NCBI RefSeq assembly: GCF_012027395.1
Contig: NZ_SNUJ01000001.1
Span: forward strand, 496,001-560,000
DNA from: Thermococcus sp. LS1
GTDB lineage: Archaea > Methanobacteriota_B > Thermococci > Thermococcales > Thermococcaceae
Reading direction: 5' to 3'
Length of the DNA stretch: 64,000 nucleotides
In this document: positions 35,954-43,963 of the stretch, piece after piece
Layout of the letters: each line of letters begins with the position of its first letter
How positions within the stretch are numbered: the first letter of the stretch is position 1
The notes under the pieces: model-generated
Seen by the model: only the letters and a program-made list of their open reading frames with translations
What the model was told of the DNA's origin: nothing
The model's database searches: none
Translations under genes and position numbers: made by a program

Positions 35954-36697
35954 TCACCTGTTGAGGATGGTGAAGACGCCTATCAGCAGGATTATGATGT
36001 TTATCGCCCTTTTAAGCTTCTCCCTGTCTGCCATCGTGTTCACGTGAGTTCCAAAATAAACGCCGGGCAGAGTACCGAGGATCAGCGCAGCCGCGAGGTG
36101 GTAATCCACGCTTCCTAGGAAGGCATAGTTGAGGAAGCTGAAGGTCGAGAGGGCTAACCCGTAGACTATCGTAACGCCGACAACTTCTTTCGGGTCGAGC
36201 CTTGCCACGTTCATCAGCGTAAAGCTCACTATGACGCCAGCTCCGACGGAGGTGAACTGCACGGTAAGTCCAACGATGAAGCCTAGGAGATAAACGTAAG
36301 CCCACCTCGGCTTTATCGGAACGTGGAGCTCACCCTTGAGAAGGCTCAGAACTGCGCTGATGACCAGAATAAGGCCGAGGAGAAGTGTGAGGTAGTCGTT
36401 GAGGATCTCCTTGTTTATCTCCCTGAGTATCAGTCCACCAAGGGCTATCGCGGGCAGGCTTCCTGCGAAAAGCCTCAGTGATACGTCATACCTTATCCTG
36501 CCCCTCCTGTGGTGGAAGAAGACACCAAAAATCCGCGTTACGGTGGCGTAGAGCAGGTCTGTGCCTACCGCTATAAGCGGCTCCACGCCGAGGAAGATAA
36601 GGGAGGGGGTCATTAGAGCTCCCCCACCTACGCCGGTTAACCCGACGAGGAAGCCCACGAGGAGGCCCAGACCGACGAAGATTATCAGCTCCTCCAT
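35954..36697 (-). CDS. TauE/SafE-family membrane transporter
   Basis: The 247-residue protein has 7-8 membrane segments with the two TauE repeat motifs: GFLVGLTGVGGGALMTPSL near the N-terminus and GFIVGLTVQFTSVGAGVIVS in the second half. The family moves sulfite, sulfonates, sulfoacetate or related anions. In this operon sulfate uptake is the plausible role, by inference. It starts 18 bases after APS kinase, with GGGGAGGGG before the ATG. Confidence 0.85.
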   Translation of the reverse strand: MEELIIFVGLGLLVGFLVGLTGVGGGALMTPSLIFLGVEPLIAVGTDLLYATVTRIFGVFFHHRRGRIRYDVSLRLFAGSLPAIALGGLILREINKEILNDYLTLLLGLILVISAVLSLLKGELHVPIKPRWAYVYLLGFIVGLTVQFTSVGAGVIVSFTLMNVARLDPKEVVGVTIVYGLALSTFSFLNYAFLGSVDYHLAAALILGTLPGVYFGTHVNTMADREKLKRAINIIILLIGVFTILNR

Positions 36698-36715: not shown

Positions 36716-37261
36716 TCACGGCAGGTACCCAAGCTCCCTGGCCTTCTGAATAACGAGTTCAACTTCTTCCTCAGGCGTCATCTTCGAGCTGTCCACCTTT
36801 ACCTCCGGGTTCTCGGGTTCTTCGTAAACGCCATCGTAGCCGGTGAGACCCTTTATCTCGCCGCGCAGGGCTTTTGCATAGAGCCCCTTCGGGTCGCGCT
36901 GTATTCTGACCTCCAGCGGGGCGTAGACGTAGACCTCTATGAAGTTTCCTATCTCCTTCCTTGCGTGCTCTCTAACTGCCCTATACGGAGAGATCAACGA
37001 GACTATCGCTATAACGCCGTTTCTTGAGAGGAGCTTGGCCATATGGATGACGATTCTGTTGTGCATCTCCCTCGCTTCCTTAGAAAAGCCGAGCTCCGGA
37101 TAGAGCGTCTTCCTTATCGTATCGCCGTCGAGTATTTCCACGCGGTAGCCCATTTCTCTGAGTTTCTTGGCAAGTTTGACAGCTAGAGTAGTCTTTCCGG
37201 CACCGCTCGGCCCCGTGAGCCAGATCGTAAAGCCCTTCTCTAGGTTCCTTAACTCGGACAT
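36716..37261 (-). CDS. cysC: Adenylylsulfate (APS) kinase
   Basis: The 181-residue enzyme has the P-loop GPSGAGKTTLAVKLAKKL (from residue 17), the APS-binding LDGDTIRKTLYPELGFSKEA, IAIVSLISPYRAVREHARKE and the lid region with DPKGLYAKALRGEIKGLTGY. It phosphorylates APS to PAPS. The gene stands three genes downstream of ATP sulfurylase in the same operon. PAPS here would supply the sulfotransferase at 32091 because no PAPS reductase is in the window. Confidence 0.95.
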   Translation of the reverse strand: MSELRNLEKGFTIWLTGPSGAGKTTLAVKLAKKLREMGYRVEILDGDTIRKTLYPELGFSKEAREMHNRIVIHMAKLLSRNGVIAIVSLISPYRAVREHARKEIGNFIEVYVYAPLEVRIQRDPKGLYAKALRGEIKGLTGYDGVYEEPENPEVKVDSSKMTPEEEVELVIQKARELGYLP

Positions 37262-37300: not shown

Positions 37301-38731
37301 TCAGAGGATACTCCTCCCATGCATTCCCGCCAGCGGCTCCTCTATTCCAAAGAGCCTGAGCACCGTCGGCGCGAAGTCGTAGATGGTCAGCTGGGTGTGC
37401 TTTGACTCGTCCATGCCCGGCAGGTACATGGAAAACACTCCAAGCTCCGAGTGGTTCGCATCGTCAGGCCCGGTGTCGTTCTCAGGTAAATAGTTGCTCG
37501 GGTGGCCGAGGGTCCCTGCTGCTCTCCAGTTGAGGTTGTCGAAGTAGACCATAATGTCAGGCTTGCTTCCCTTTGCGACGGGGTAGATGTCCTCAGGGTA
37601 GAAGACCTTCGTGTCCCACTTCTCGCCGTTCGGGCCGCGTATGGACTTTATCATCTCCGCAACCTCATCGCGGACGCTTTCGAACTTTGATAGGGGTATT
37701 CTGCCCTCCTTCTCCCTTCCGAGGACGTTGAGGAAGACACGCGAGTAGTAGCCGCCCCATCCCCAGGCCGTGCTCTCCTTCCAGTCCACGTCCAGCTGCT
37801 CGAAGCGGATTACCTTACCGCTGTGGATAACCTCCGGGTTCCTGACCTTCAGCAGGCCCTCTTCGATGAGCCACTGGTTGACGGCGAAGTTGCCGTGCAT
37901 GCCTTTTATGCCGTGGTCGGAAACTATAAAGACGGCCGTCTCGTCGAGGTCTATGAGCTTGAGCGTCTCGCCTATCTCCTTATCCAGTAGCTTGTAGTAG
38001 TCTGGAATGACGTTCTCGTATTTGTTTCCCTTCCCAGGGTAGAGGTGGTGGTTCTCGTCGAAGTAACGCCAGAAGGCGTGGTGAAGCCTGTCGAGGCCTA
38101 TCTCGACGAAGTGGAAATAGTCCCACTCCTTCTCCTGAAGGAGGTAGCGGATAACCTCGAAGCGCTTCTCCGTCATCTCCCAGATGCCTTCCTTGACCTC
38201 GTCCTTGGCCTCTTTCCTGAAGGGGACGTCGAAGATGTACTCACCGACGAGCCTCTCTATCTCGCCTTTCAGCTCCTTCGGGTATGTGTAATCAACGCTC
38301 GCATCTGGTGTTATGAAGCAGCTAACTAGATGGCCCTTTATCGGCTTTGGCGGGTATGTTGGGGGGACACCAACGATTATCGACCTCTTCCCGCGCTCGC
38401 CGAGGTAGTCCCACACGGTCGGCTCCTTGACTTTCTTGCTGTGGGCTATCCAGTAGTCGGTGTAGCTGTAGCCCGTCCTGTGCCTGAAGCCGTAGAGACC
38501 GAGCTCGCCGGCAGTTTTGCCCGTGACCATGACCATCCACATGGGGATCGTGATCGCCGGGATACCCGTCTTCATGGGGCCGTAAATTGAGCGCTCAAGG
38601 AGCCTCCTGACGTTGGGCATGTCGTCAAGAAAGCGCCCGAAGAGGAGCTCCGGCGGGGCCGAGTCAAGGCCTATCACAAAGACCTTCTTGGTCTCCGTCA
38701 TACCCTCCCTAATCTTCTTCTCAAACTCCAT
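37301..38731 (-). CDS. Type I phosphodiesterase/nucleotide pyrophosphatase-like enzyme of the sulfate operon
   Basis: The ATG at 38731 follows GGGGTGAGAAGT. Metal and nucleophile regions are VIGLDSAPPELLFGRF, PAITIPMWMVMVTGKTAGEL (Thr nucleophile), VEIGLDRLHHAFWRY and IVSDHGIKGMHGNFAVNQ. It is a large cytoplasmic alkaline-phosphatase-superfamily protein with a C-terminal segment ending LFGIEEPLAGMHGRS. It lies directly between the DHH and APS kinase genes, 5 and 39 bases away. It may act on a nucleotide or sulfated/phosphorylated glycan intermediate; the substrate is unknown. Confidence 0.85.
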   Translation of the reverse strand: MEFEKKIREGMTETKKVFVIGLDSAPPELLFGRFLDDMPNVRRLLERSIYGPMKTGIPAITIPMWMVMVTGKTAGELGLYGFRHRTGYSYTDYWIAHSKKVKEPTVWDYLGERGKRSIIVGVPPTYPPKPIKGHLVSCFITPDASVDYTYPKELKGEIERLVGEYIFDVPFRKEAKDEVKEGIWEMTEKRFEVIRYLLQEKEWDYFHFVEIGLDRLHHAFWRYFDENHHLYPGKGNKYENVIPDYYKLLDKEIGETLKLIDLDETAVFIVSDHGIKGMHGNFAVNQWLIEEGLLKVRNPEVIHSGKVIRFEQLDVDWKESTAWGWGGYYSRVFLNVLGREKEGRIPLSKFESVRDEVAEMIKSIRGPNGEKWDTKVFYPEDIYPVAKGSKPDIMVYFDNLNWRAAGTLGHPSNYLPENDTGPDDANHSELGVFSMYLPGMDESKHTQLTIYDFAPTVLRLFGIEEPLAGMHGRSIL

Positions 38732-38736
38732 ACTTC

Positions 38737-39672
38737 TCACCCCAGGTATTCCTCAACGATTTTGAGCGCGTCTTCGATTTTATCCCTCTCACATACGCAA
38801 CCGAGGACTTCCCTCTTGCCCCCGGCATTCGTTCCGAGGACGCGGAGCCTCTCAATGACTTCTGCCATGTTTATCCTTTCGGCTTCCTCCTTCGAGACCC
38901 TGAAGTAGAGCTGAGCCTTCCCGTGGAAGTTCTTATTGACAACGACGGCACCTCTAAAGCCCATTTCCCAGACGAGCCTCCGTGCAACCTTGGAGATTAT
39001 GTTAAACGGACTCTCGAACTCGACTATCGCGAAGCCGTTCCTCTCAGCCACGCTTGAGAGGGCTTCCTCTATTGTGCGTCTTATCTCATCCGCTCGCTTC
39101 ACCCACGGCTCATATTCAAGGAGCTCTTTAGTTTCTTGACTGAGCAGAACTGCAACGGCATCTTCAACGGCTTCTCTGTCCACGGCTATGTAGTTCGAGT
39201 CCATCAGCTCGACGAGCCTTAAAGCTTCCTCCCGTGATAGGCCTTCCCTGTCGAGGAGCTCATTAACGCGAGGAATCTCAAAAGCCCTCTCTCCGATGTC
39301 GCCGACTACGCCAAGGGCGCTCCAGGCGTTCCAGAGGCCGAAGTACTCGGAAACCACCAGCGAGGCGGATGGATAATATTCACCGTCGAGTGAGGGGTTA
39401 ATCTGCTTGACCTTCGGGTTCCTTATCCTCGGCTGCGTGTGATGGTCTATGAAGAGTGTTTCGACGTTTACCTTCTCCACCTCACCCGGAACGTTGAAGT
39501 CCATCACGTAGAGCTTTTCAGCCCCTTCTATTGCCTTCCAGATCCTCTCATCGAAGCGGAACTCGCCTATTGGTGCTGTCATATTTGTGAATTCTTCTAA
39601 ACAGAGTGCTCTGACGAGCAAAGCTGCTGAAGTTATTCCGTCCGTGTCCCAGTGATGAACTATTAGATGCAC
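38737..39672 (-). CDS. DHH-family phosphoesterase
   Basis: Motif I is VHHWDTDGITSAALLVRAL, motif III is TLFIDHHTQP (the DHH motif), SALGVVGDIGER follows, and the C-terminal DHHA1 domain has TNAGGKREVLGC. DHH proteins include RecJ nucleases, cyclic-dinucleotide phosphodiesterases and pAp phosphatases. Being in an operon with ATP sulfurylase and APS kinase, it could hydrolyse the PAP left after sulfotransfer. That is an inference from context only. Confidence 0.85.
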   Translation of the reverse strand: MHLIVHHWDTDGITSAALLVRALCLEEFTNMTAPIGEFRFDERIWKAIEGAEKLYVMDFNVPGEVEKVNVETLFIDHHTQPRIRNPKVKQINPSLDGEYYPSASLVVSEYFGLWNAWSALGVVGDIGERAFEIPRVNELLDREGLSREEALRLVELMDSNYIAVDREAVEDAVAVLLSQETKELLEYEPWVKRADEIRRTIEEALSSVAERNGFAIVEFESPFNIISKVARRLVWEMGFRGAVVVNKNFHGKAQLYFRVSKEEAERINMAEVIERLRVLGTNAGGKREVLGCVCERDKIEDALKIVEEYLG

Positions 39673-39701: not shown

Positions 39702-40841
39702 TCACTCCACGAAGGGCTTCTCAAAGCTCCTTATGACCTCGTAAACCTCGGGCCTCATCATGTATTCTGGCGGCTGCTCGCCGGCCATTATCATCTTCCT
39801 GAGCTTGGTGCCGCTGATTCTGACGTGGAACTCCTCCGGGTGCGGGCATATCTTGGCGTTAACCATTCCGCCGCACTTCCTGCAGTAGAAGGCTTCCCTG
39901 ATGAACATCGGCGTTATGCCGAGGTCGGGGAAGTTGTCAAACATGTCCCAGGCCTCGTAGGGCCCGTAGTAGTCGCCGACACCCGCGTGGTCGCGTCCAA
40001 CAATGAAGTGCGTTGCACCGAAGTTCTTTCTCATTATTGCGTGGTGTATGGCCTCTCTTGGGCCTGCGTAGCGCATCTCATAGCGCACTGTCGCCAGAGT
40101 TGCGGCGTTCTTCGGGTAGTAATGCTCAAACAGAACCTCGTAGGCCTTTATTATGACCTCGTCCCTGTAATCTCCTTTCTTCTTCTTTCCAAGGACGGGA
40201 TTTATGAAGAGGCCGTCGACGAATGTGAGTGCTGCCTTCTGGACGTACTCATGGCCAAGGTGCGGCACGTTCCTCGTCTGGAACGCAACGATGGTCTTCC
40301 AGCCACGCTCCTTGAAGAGGATCCTCGTCTCGACGGGTCTGAGGGTGTACTTGGCGAAGGGGTTTGGAACTTCATTGAGGAGCTCTATCTCACCACCGAC
40401 GAGGTATTCGCCCATGGAATAAACCTTGGCAACGCCCGGATGATTTGGATCGGTGGTCTTGAAGACTTTCTGGGCAAACTCTCTCTTGTCGTAGGTGTAT
40501 ATTTCCTCAACGTGCATCCTTGCAATAGGTATGTCTTCGTAGTAGAGCAAAACCGCGTCTCCCTCGTCAAAGGTCTTCTCCATAACGTCGAGCACTATCG
40601 GAATAGTCCAAGGGGTATCATCGCTCAGACGCATGTGGTCGAGTACACTTTGGAAATCATCGCTTGTGAGAAAGCCTTTCAGGGGAGAATAGACACCATG
40701 GGCGATGTTCTCGAGGTCTATCGCCCTTCCGTGGTCGATCTTAACGGAGGGATACTCCTTCTGCTCGCTCAGAATTCTCTCGCGGGTTCTCTCCGCGACG
40801 AGCCTTCTGACTAACTTGCCTCCGTGGGGCTTCGAGACCAT
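39702..40841 (-). CDS. sat: ATP sulfurylase (sulfate adenylyltransferase)
   Basis: This 379-residue Sat protein has the N-terminal region AIDLENIAHGVYSPLKGFLT, the substrate motifs AFQTRNVPHLGHEYVQKAAL (QxRN and HxxH) and HFIVGRDHAGVGDYYGPYEA. It then has a zinc-like Cys cluster (CRKCGGMVNAKIC), and ends in the IRSFEKPF segment. It makes APS from ATP and sulfate. The ATG follows GAGGTGGTAGC. It is the second gene of the operon, 25 bases after the RHH regulator. Confidence 0.96.
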   Translation of the reverse strand: MVSKPHGGKLVRRLVAERTRERILSEQKEYPSVKIDHGRAIDLENIAHGVYSPLKGFLTSDDFQSVLDHMRLSDDTPWTIPIVLDVMEKTFDEGDAVLLYYEDIPIARMHVEEIYTYDKREFAQKVFKTTDPNHPGVAKVYSMGEYLVGGEIELLNEVPNPFAKYTLRPVETRILFKERGWKTIVAFQTRNVPHLGHEYVQKAALTFVDGLFINPVLGKKKKGDYRDEVIIKAYEVLFEHYYPKNAATLATVRYEMRYAGPREAIHHAIMRKNFGATHFIVGRDHAGVGDYYGPYEAWDMFDNFPDLGITPMFIREAFYCRKCGGMVNAKICPHPEEFHVRISGTKLRKMIMAGEQPPEYMMRPEVYEVIRSFEKPFVE

Positions 40842-40866: not shown

Positions 40867-41094
40867 TCAGTCGAGGTAGCCCAGAGCCCTGAGCCTCTCT
40901 TTGACCTTCTCCTCTTCTTCCTCTGTGAAGACTTCTTCCTTCTCCTCCTCTTCGAGGCTCGCCAGAACCTCGCGGAGGACGTAGGTAACGTAGTCTGAGA
41001 CGGAAGTGAATCCGGTGCCCTCTATCCTCTTCTTAATCTTGTCGTAGAGGGGCTTTGGTATGGAAACGGTTGTGTACTTCTTTTCGTCAGCCAT
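40867..41094 (-). CDS. Ribbon-helix-helix (CopG/MetJ-like) regulator of the sulfate operon
   Basis: The ATG at 41094 (MADEKKYTTVSIPKPLYDK) follows GGAGGTGT. The 75-residue product begins with the beta-strand KYTTVSIPKPLYDKIKK, then two helices (TGFTSVSDYVTYVLREVLAS) as in RHH DNA-binding proteins, and ends in a very acidic tail (EEEEKEEVFTEEEEEKVKER) with RALGYLD. It is the first gene of a seven-gene operon that includes sat and cysC. Its promoter is covered by four 10-bp phased repeats, so autorepression is likely. Confidence 0.88.
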   Translation of the reverse strand: MADEKKYTTVSIPKPLYDKIKKRIEGTGFTSVSDYVTYVLREVLASLEEEEKEEVFTEEEEEKVKERLRALGYLD

Positions 41095-41110
41095 CCGATA
41101 CACCTCCAGC

Positions 41111-41160
41111 CTTTAATGATATTTAATGACATTTAATTAAATTTCATTAAGGCGTATAAG
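41111..41160 (-). promoter_or_regulatory. Four 10-bp phased repeats plus TATA box: probable RHH operator and operon promoter
   Basis: Plus-strand bases 41111-41150 read as four consecutive 10-mers close to ATTTAATGAN. The first three share TTTAAT exactly and the fourth has TTTCAT. CTTATACGC (minus strand, 41152-41160) is the TATA box, so the repeats cover the expected transcription start of the RHH-sat operon, about 25 bases downstream. A 10-bp period puts each site on the same helix face, as expected for cooperative RHH dimers. Binding is not shown here. Confidence 0.65.
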
Positions 41161-41206
41161 GCTTTCGGTGAGGGAGGGGTATCTTTAAAACCCTCCGGAC
41201 GTATGT

Positions 41207-41436: not shown

Positions 41437-41475
41437 TATGCACGGTAACGTTTAAGTATTGTGTGCATATGCACA
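41437..41475 (+). promoter_or_regulatory. Promoter and 14-bp palindrome upstream of the CDF transporter
   Basis: TGTGCATATGCACA (41462-41475) is a perfect 14-bp palindrome covering the expected transcription start, about 20-25 bases after the TATA-like GTTTAAGT (41450-41457). A lone half-site TATGCAC (41437-41443) lies just upstream of the TATA box. The arrangement fits a metal-responsive repressor controlling the CDF gene; the regulator is not identified. Confidence 0.5.
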
Positions 41476-42384: not shown

Positions 42385-43963
42385 TTATTGCCCTGTTAAA
42401 TCGTCTGAAGTGGGGCATATCCCCGTTCTTGGGTCGCATGGTGGAAGGCTTCCACTGCTATGGATATAAATATCTCCGTACATACCTGCCAGACTGTACT
42501 TGTTGTCCTTATATTGGAACTTGACTTTACTTGAATAGAAAGTTCCGTCCACATACTGGTTTTTGTACTCCTCTTTTAGTTGCAAGTTAAGATGAATTAG
42601 CGAGAACTCCGTGCTGTCAGTATTGAACCCAACTCCCATCGCCATGATGAACGGTGCAATTTCAAGGTTGTTGTAGTCAAGGGTTCCGAGTACCGCCGCC
42701 GACGCTGAGAAGAGGGGAATCGTGTTGGTGGACGACACGAAATCCACGTCGAGTTTTGTCAATCCCCCTGCTGGCTCTCGTGGGTCGTTGGCTCCCAGTA
42801 GCTGTGGACGAACCACATTGTCCTCTCTCCAATACCTCCATATTGGCTTGGCCACCCATGTTCCACGAACTTCTGTAGGCTCATGTCCTCTTCATCGGGC
42901 TTCCCAAGGATTACGTAGGCAACGTCGTCGAGTTTTTGGTAAACGAGACCGTCCCACCAGTAAAGCCTGTATTTTGCCAGCACGACGGTGCCCTTGATGC
43001 CTGCCCCTATTACCGAGGGATTGGAAATCTCCGAGCCCCAAATTGTGATGTGTGATTCCGGAATCGTAAGGTCTTCTGTGTTGATACTATAAGAAGTTCC
43101 TATTATCTCCGCTTCTGTAGAGGAGCTGCTACCTCCTTTTTGTACGGCCGCGGCTGCAGAGAAGATTAGTTCCAGGCTCTGGGTGGTCCTCTGCCGATAC
43201 ATTGTAGTTATGGTAATCCCGTTTATCTTGCTTGTGTCACCAGTGACTTGGAGGGCAACTAGGGGTATTATCGTGTTGGATTTTGAGACTATGGTTTTCT
43301 CCAACTTCCATACCAGGCAAACTTGGTAGCATGACCCAGTCCACGGATCACATTTCCAGTAGCACTGATCATAGTCAAAGCTTGGCGGCCAGTTTTCTGT
43401 GGTTGCTGAAATATTGTTGCCCTTAATCTTTTGGAGTTCTATTGATTTGAGCTTCTCCTCTATCTGGTTTTTGGTGTAGAGAATTTTAGAGCTCCCTCTG
43501 GGTAGCTTCACCTGAATGCTCCTCTTGTCGAGCACTTCTCCCACATTAATCGGCACGGCTTTTATGAAGTATTGCACGTTGTTGTTTTCATCTCGGAGGG
43601 TTCCCAAGAGCAGAAGTGATGCCGACACCGCTCTGGAATCGAGCTTGGCACTTTTCAAGTAAGAACCCCAGAGTTTCATTGCTTTAGTGAGCTGGCTGTA
43701 GCTTATTTTTATCTTATCCTGTCCTGAGAAAGTTCCAAGTTCCATCAGAGAACCGTTTGGAAGAAGGATTGACGCCGTAACTATTCCGTATCCCTTCTCC
43801 GGAAGCTCAATCTCAAGGCTGGGGTCGAGTATGAAGTTCCGCTTGTATTCAACCTTTGCTCCAAGGTACTCCTTGGAGTCTATTGGGATGTTATATACTG
43901 CAGCTCCCGAGGCTATGCTTCCCAAGAATAAAACTACTATTAGTACTATAATAGTTTTTTCAT
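42385..43963 (-). pseudogene. Secreted protein gene broken by two homopolymer frameshifts
   Basis: Read as one gene, it starts at the ATG at 43963 after GAGGTGAT, but ATGAAAAAACT has six A (43955-43960) and hits a stop at codon 5. With a seventh A the frame continues into a signal peptide (TIIVLIVVLFLGSIASGA) and a 400-residue exported protein. A second break lies in a G5 run near 42770, where one added G joins this frame to the C-terminal 140 residues (GGLTKLDVDFVSSTNTIPLF). The exported part has many Cys near the middle (CYWKCDPWTGSCYQVC). Product unrecognised. A TATA-like GTTTTTAAG lies near 44000. Sequencing error is the alternative. Confidence 0.6.

Follow-up and report, generated by a model that had tools for sequence, protein, structure and literature searches.

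The locus lies in a window of 64 kb, by which we mean the whole stretch of DNA analyzed, from a 2.0-Mb Thermococcaceae genome (G000). Six minus-strand genes are packed tightly here, running from 41094 down to 35954, and they begin with a small RHH protein gene followed by sat, the gene for ATP sulfurylase (Table 1). From the RHH gene to the TauE gene, the intergenic gaps are, in order, 25 bp, 29 bp, an overlap, 39 bp, and 18 bp; because these gaps are small, the arrangement suggests that the RHH-sat-DHH-PDE-apsK-TauE string forms one transcript. The RHH gene starts with an ATG at 41094, and a GTG at 41103 is an unlikely start, lying inside the Shine-Dalgarno sequence. A cation-efflux (CDF) gene diverges from the string, starting from about 41491.

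Table 1. Coordinates of the genes and promoter features of the RHH-sat string within the window
Feature	Position	Strand	Basis or remark
BRE/TATA element AAAGCCTTATACG	41153..41165	-	Predicted; sequence match and conserved geometry
Candidate operator array, four 10-bp units	41110..41149	-	Sequence and conservation
Predicted transcription start	41129..41132	-	TATA center plus about 25 nt; inside the array
Shine-Dalgarno sequence GGAGGTG of the RHH gene	41107-41101	-	Conserved
RHH protein gene, 75 aa (MADEKKYTTVSIPKPLYDKI...RALGYLD)	40867..41094	-	Candidate regulator
sat, ATP sulfurylase	39702..40841	-	Domains PUA_2 and ATP-sulfurylase
DHH phosphoesterase, PAP phosphatase homologue	38737..39672	-	Homologue characterized in PMC8268124
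Type I phosphodiesterase/nucleotide pyrophosphatase (PDE)	37301..38740	-	
apsK, APS kinase	36716..37261	-	
TauE/SafE family permease	35954..36697	-	Last gene of the string

Four consecutive 10-mers stand in front of the RHH gene, read on the plus strand as CCTTTAATGA (41110-41119), TATTTAATGA (41120-41129), CATTTAATTA (41130-41139), and AATTTCATTA (41140-41149). Three of them are near ATTTAATGAN, and the fourth is more diverged. Within them, the hexamers TAATGA, TAATGA, TAATTA, and TCATTA start at 41114, 41124, 41134, and 41144, an exact 10-bp step, and these cores (41114-41119, 41124-41129, 41134-41139, and 41144-41149) are all TAATTA-like (TMATTA/TAATKA). An earlier note on this DNA had claimed four 10-bp repeats between the TATA box and the RHH gene; the repeats are real, and the order is indeed TATA, array, Shine-Dalgarno sequence, ATG. 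The span it gave, 41111-41160, is offset by one base and also takes in the TATA box. When hexamers with at most one mismatch to TAATTA were chained in 10-bp steps, this four-unit array was the longest chain across the 64 kb. With other steps (7-9 and 11-13 bp), the longest chain in the window was 1-2 units, and 60 windows simulated with an order-2 Markov model gave a maximum of three units, reached once. A genome-wide regulon is unsupported, as the array was seen once in G000, with no match elsewhere, and the extra matches in AT-rich distant genomes often came at about the control frequency.

The TATA box itself reads TTATAC on the minus strand (41159-41154), and its center, at about 41156, is 62 nt 5' of the ATG. 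Because TATA boxes in T. onnurineus sit at -30 to -20 (PMC5316973), transcription is predicted from the sequence to start near 41130, within the array, which would give a 5' untranslated region of about 36 nt. The array spans about -19 to +17 relative to this predicted start and adjoins the TATA box without overlapping it. Its location over the predicted start is compatible with repression.

The 75-aa protein is likely a member of the RHH (CopG/MetJ/Arc) superfamily. Its best Pfam match is RHH_1, below threshold (17.2 versus 20.5 bits); among its relatives, 10 of 54 match RHH_1 at an E value of ≤0.01 (best, 2.6e-4), and 23 match CheR_N weakly. The AlphaFold monomer model (pLDDT 84) has an extended N terminus, helices at residues 14-24 and 32-53, and then a third, C-terminal helix after these two RHH helices, the intermolecular ribbon being beyond a monomer model. 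Many of the top Foldseek matches are RHH proteins, although weak ones (E > 0.1), and the solved sequence closest to the family profile is the RHH part of NikR (2bj1; E = 0.023). An acidic helix closes the protein at residue 75. The C-terminal tail EEEEEKVKERLRALGYLD (window 40870-40930) hardly varies between the two types of RHH strand compared below or from one archaeal phylum to another; in many cases the RHH protein is better conserved than sat (e.g., 95% versus 80% in the Geoglobus locus L211). Two narrower assignments were rejected. Membership in NikR fails on the lack of a C-terminal nickel-binding domain and on NCBIfam NikR scores of 17.8 and 12.4 bits against cutoffs of 119 and 83 bits, respectively. 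An antitoxin of a type II toxin-antitoxin system would call for a toxin gene, and none is adjacent: the next gene is sat, both in the window, where no gene intervenes, and in nearly all loci, with apsK, PDE, or DHH as the first sulfate gene detected after RHH in a few.

Across the 94 genomes of the family, the RHH gene was found in 60 and sat in 62, and each full-length sat gene examined lies directly 3' of an RHH gene. Operons whose RHH protein has a TTVSIP-type N-terminal strand carry the consensus TTAATTAAATGTMATTAAATATMATTAA immediately 5' of the Shine-Dalgarno sequence, mostly in three units and sometimes in two or four. Most array columns hold 1-2 bits of information, versus about 0.1 bit in the adjoining upstream spacer between the TATA box and the array. 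In almost every Thermococcaceae promoter, the first unit lies 7 or 17-18 bp from the TATA center, and many of the 7-bp cases have an extra unit, so that gains and losses of units preserve helical phase with the promoter. A scan of the 94 genomes with a 28-mer (up to three mismatches) matched 44 of them, every one RHH positive, and none of the 34 genomes without RHH; the matches lie at the RHH promoter, with exceptions at sites in G083 and G084. As a control, the reversed pattern gave no matches in the same 94 genomes. The earlier note had proposed to look for the motif before orthologous operons and held that absence in all relatives would speak against it; before RHH-sat operons, the motif is strongly conserved. 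One match in G085 (C220:1046), outside any sat or RHH context, was discarded as apparent chance. Separately, decayed sat or RHH remnants were seen at L152, L153, L155, and L156 (G069, G021, G039, and G009). These remnants in four genomes suggest that the RHH-sat operon was lost or relocated repeatedly.

Beyond the family, we scanned GTDB genomes with the RHH family, so that the loci discussed here were selected by their RHH gene. Such loci occur in Archaeoglobi (Geoglobus), a Methanocaldococcaceae MAG, Thermoplasmatota, DHVE2, and Altiarchaeales, and further ones occur in Diapherotrites, Theionarchaea, Asgard/Hermodarchaeota, Bathyarchaeota, and Nitrososphaeria MAGs. In nearly all of them, sat follows about 230-280 nt 3' of the RHH start, and phased TAATTA-like hexamers precede that start. 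The unit common to these genomes is the hexamer, usually in 2-5 copies, and the same-face 10-bp spacing that the earlier note had pointed to keeps its phase across distant archaea. In a set of 42 promoters dereplicated below 65% identity, 58 hexamer pairs stood 10 bp apart, against 2.6 ± 1.7 in shuffles (maximum, 9), and further peaks appeared at 20 and 30 bp. There was also an excess at 4, 6, and 14-16 bp, which comes at least in part from overlapping near-matches inside TAATTAAATA-like units. Chains of at least two units were present in 34 of the 42 promoters versus 20 of 5494 other 70-nt tiles, and chains of at least three units in 14 of 42 versus 0 of 5494. When tiles equally or more AT-rich were taken, the counts were 4/246 for two-unit chains and 0/246 for three-unit chains. 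Chance AT-richness is rejected by the shuffles, the AT-matched tiles, and the reversed-pattern control. Because mis-binning can make MAG labels wrong and the sat tree departs from neat taxonomic order, joint gene transfer may explain part of the breadth across phyla.

Array presence tracks the type of the RHH DNA-contact strand. Twelve Thermococcaceae operons encode an RHH protein with a changed N-terminal strand (10 VEVKIP-like, 1 VTISIP, and 1 VTIEIP) and a C-terminal half nearly identical to that of the TTVSIP type. Chains of at least two units were found in none of these 12 versus 92 of the 101 TTVSIP-type (class A) operons, and most of the 9 class A loci that miss this simple chain criterion have a visible, degenerate array; the Hermodarchaeota loci L242 and L243 are unlike the rest. 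From the alignment with Arc and CopG, we take the outward strand residues of the array-bearing type to be Y/F/H, T/S, and S; in the main array-less type, these positions would hold a hydrophobic residue, E/A, and K. In one locus (L047), the predicted contact residues Y, T, and S are all present, yet there is no array. No TAATTA array was present in L051-L060, where a VEVKIP-type RHH gene precedes sat, and none was found at the front of the rearranged cluster of G008 or at the divergent promoter of G004; no shared replacement motif was obvious by eye in the upstream regions of changed-strand operons. The sat tree places the changed type within the TTVSIP type and requires at least four changes, two of which well-supported branches make unavoidable; an independent-pairs test has only 2 supported contrasts, too few for significance.

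The array also occurs at a few other positions. In G083 and G084, a TauE-type gene and a preceding short open reading frame (ORF) lie upstream of the RHH gene with their own TATA box and phased array, and the RHH gene has a second TATA box and array. A 244-aa TauE-type permease gene is found upstream of RHH in L042, L043, and L045, with close copies only in G082-G084, and in L043 and L045 it carries an array copy and a short upstream ORF. Because the TauE promoter of L043 and the RHH promoter of L039 can be aligned over 125 bp, the permease gene was probably inserted behind an old RHH promoter, and the array at the TauE promoter may be an inherited position and not an independent recruitment. 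In the Methanocaldococcaceae MAG locus (L252), a second array of three units with its own TATA-like stretch occupies the RHH-sat interval (L252:431-466), where it precedes a sat-specific start. The order of TATA, array, and start codon is kept in both the TauE cases of G083 and G084 and the L252 case.

Several known RHH systems offer points of comparison. MetJ is an RHH repressor of sulfur-related biosynthesis that binds tandem short operator units as cooperative dimers. It differs in its 8-bp met boxes, its S-adenosylmethionine corepressor, and its extra helices, and no such effector region was recognized here. NikR, whose RHH part is the closest solved match, has a C-terminal metal-binding domain that is absent here, and the context here is sulfate activation, not nickel. 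The omega protein of pSM19035, of the MetJ/Arc family, resembles the pair proposed here in being a small RHH dimer with a short-repeat array as its operator at promoters; it places one dimer per heptad and polymerizes on the repeats (PMC4803016). However, its repeat is a 7-bp NATCACN heptad, a description that a TAATTA-like hexamer every 10 bp does not fit, and it controls bacterial plasmid copy-number, partition, and toxin-antitoxin genes rather than archaeal sulfate activation. F55 of SSV1, an archaeal viral RHH protein, likewise has tandem repeats over the TSS/BRE and its own promoter among its targets, although its repeats are of the ATAGATAG type, unlike the array here, and serve viral lysogeny genes (PMC5569661). 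For autorepression, omega and F55 serve as working precedents.

A regulator at the head of such a cluster has been suggested before. In P. yayanosii, the putative CopG PYCH_17520 is the first gene of a copG-sat-DHH-PDE-apsK cluster, and one sentence names it a potential regulator of the pathway; the part of that paper considered here describes no operator or binding for it (PMC8268124). We found no description of the operator of a sat-cluster CopG regulator in the open-access literature. Already known, then, are the CopG suggestion and RHH arrays as a kind; as far as that literature goes, the deeply conserved candidate operator would be a new one. Neither a sulfotransferase nor a complete reduction route was identified in P. 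yayanosii (PMC8268124), and the end use of sulfate activation in Thermococcales is unsettled. In T. onnurineus, the main text on the primary transcriptome mentions neither ATP sulfurylase nor two locus tags tried (PMC5316973), and the proteome under sulfur leaves the regulation unsettled, because PAP phosphatase and ATP sulfurylase change in opposite directions (PMC4463584).

Taken together, we judge it quite probable, from sequence comparison, that the array is the operator of an autorepressor encoded by the first gene, with RHH dimers stacked at each helical turn over the start. The repeats are very probably the sites by which the RHH protein would shut off the operon, itself included; in class A Thermococcaceae, as in distant archaea, the candidate operator lies in the candidate regulator's own promoter. 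Each dimer would read one near-palindromic TAATTA hexamer, with its two-stranded beta-ribbon inserted in the major groove. Dimers 10 bp apart would share a helix face and touch each other, and because of this contact they would fill the array cooperatively. A filled array would block the recruitment or escape of RNA polymerase, and RHH-sat-DHH-PDE-apsK(-TauE), RHH included, would be kept at a set level until a signal weakens binding; APS, PAPS, PAP, or a protein docking on the C-terminal tail are candidates for that signal. Binding, dimer stoichiometry, cooperativity, repression, the single transcript, and the operon-wide effect are all what we infer from this arrangement.

It is also important to consider that the array could be the operator of another regulator whose gene lies elsewhere, such as one that responds to sulfur or redox state, with RHH as a passenger or partner. 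Start-site binding is common among archaeal regulators, and we infer the direct link between RHH and the DNA. We nevertheless regard this as unlikely, as the array is essentially confined to one promoter per genome, never occurs in family genomes without RHH, and does not accompany the changed RHH strands; moreover, RHH is the one DNA-binding gene always beside the array in diverse archaea, in loci that were themselves selected by RHH. Somewhat less likely again, the RHH protein could bind the array but mainly activate, or tune in both directions by concentration, as the archaeal viral RHH protein AvtR both activates and represses (PMC5569661); against this, the units cover the predicted start downstream of the TATA box, where a bound protein would be expected to block polymerase and not to recruit it. 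A role as an RNA element of the 5' untranslated region, or simply as AT-rich DNA that melts first, with no sequence-specific protein involved, is very improbable: the array is predicted to be partly transcribed and an A/T-rich element occurs near -10 in promoters of T. onnurineus (PMC5316973), but the specific letters and the 10-bp phase exceed those of the equally AT-rich tiles, units reach upstream of the predicted start, and changed-strand operons manage without an array.

Returning to the RHH autorepressor, we put forward a wider reading tentatively, at somewhat less than even odds. One dedicated operator code, a TAATTA-like hexamer at each helical turn, may have stayed together with its RHH reader at the sulfate-activation operon in several archaeal phyla, through vertical descent or through joint transfer. 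Some Thermococcaceae lineages may have rewritten or lost this code via the beta-strand while the tail was kept, which would imply that the tail senses or docks a conserved pathway component. Few archaeal regulons offer a candidate regulator, a candidate operator, and natural variation in both. Here, a 40-bp site and a 75-aa protein make a compact pair that distant archaea share, and natural variants of the strand exist in which the site has been lost; with this pair, both the reading of TAATTA by an RHH ribbon at high temperature and the control of sulfate activation in archaea become testable.

Two further features of the window were recorded upstream of the RHH string. The overlapping minus-strand ORFs at 42759-43925 and 42385-42855 resemble a single exported-protein gene split by a frameshift (window 42385-43925). 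Directly before the divergent CDF gene is a perfect palindrome, TGTGCATATGCACA (41462-41475). At least eight related loci have it, identical or nearly so, in the corresponding position, and it probably serves a separate regulator, perhaps a metal-responsive one, as operator.
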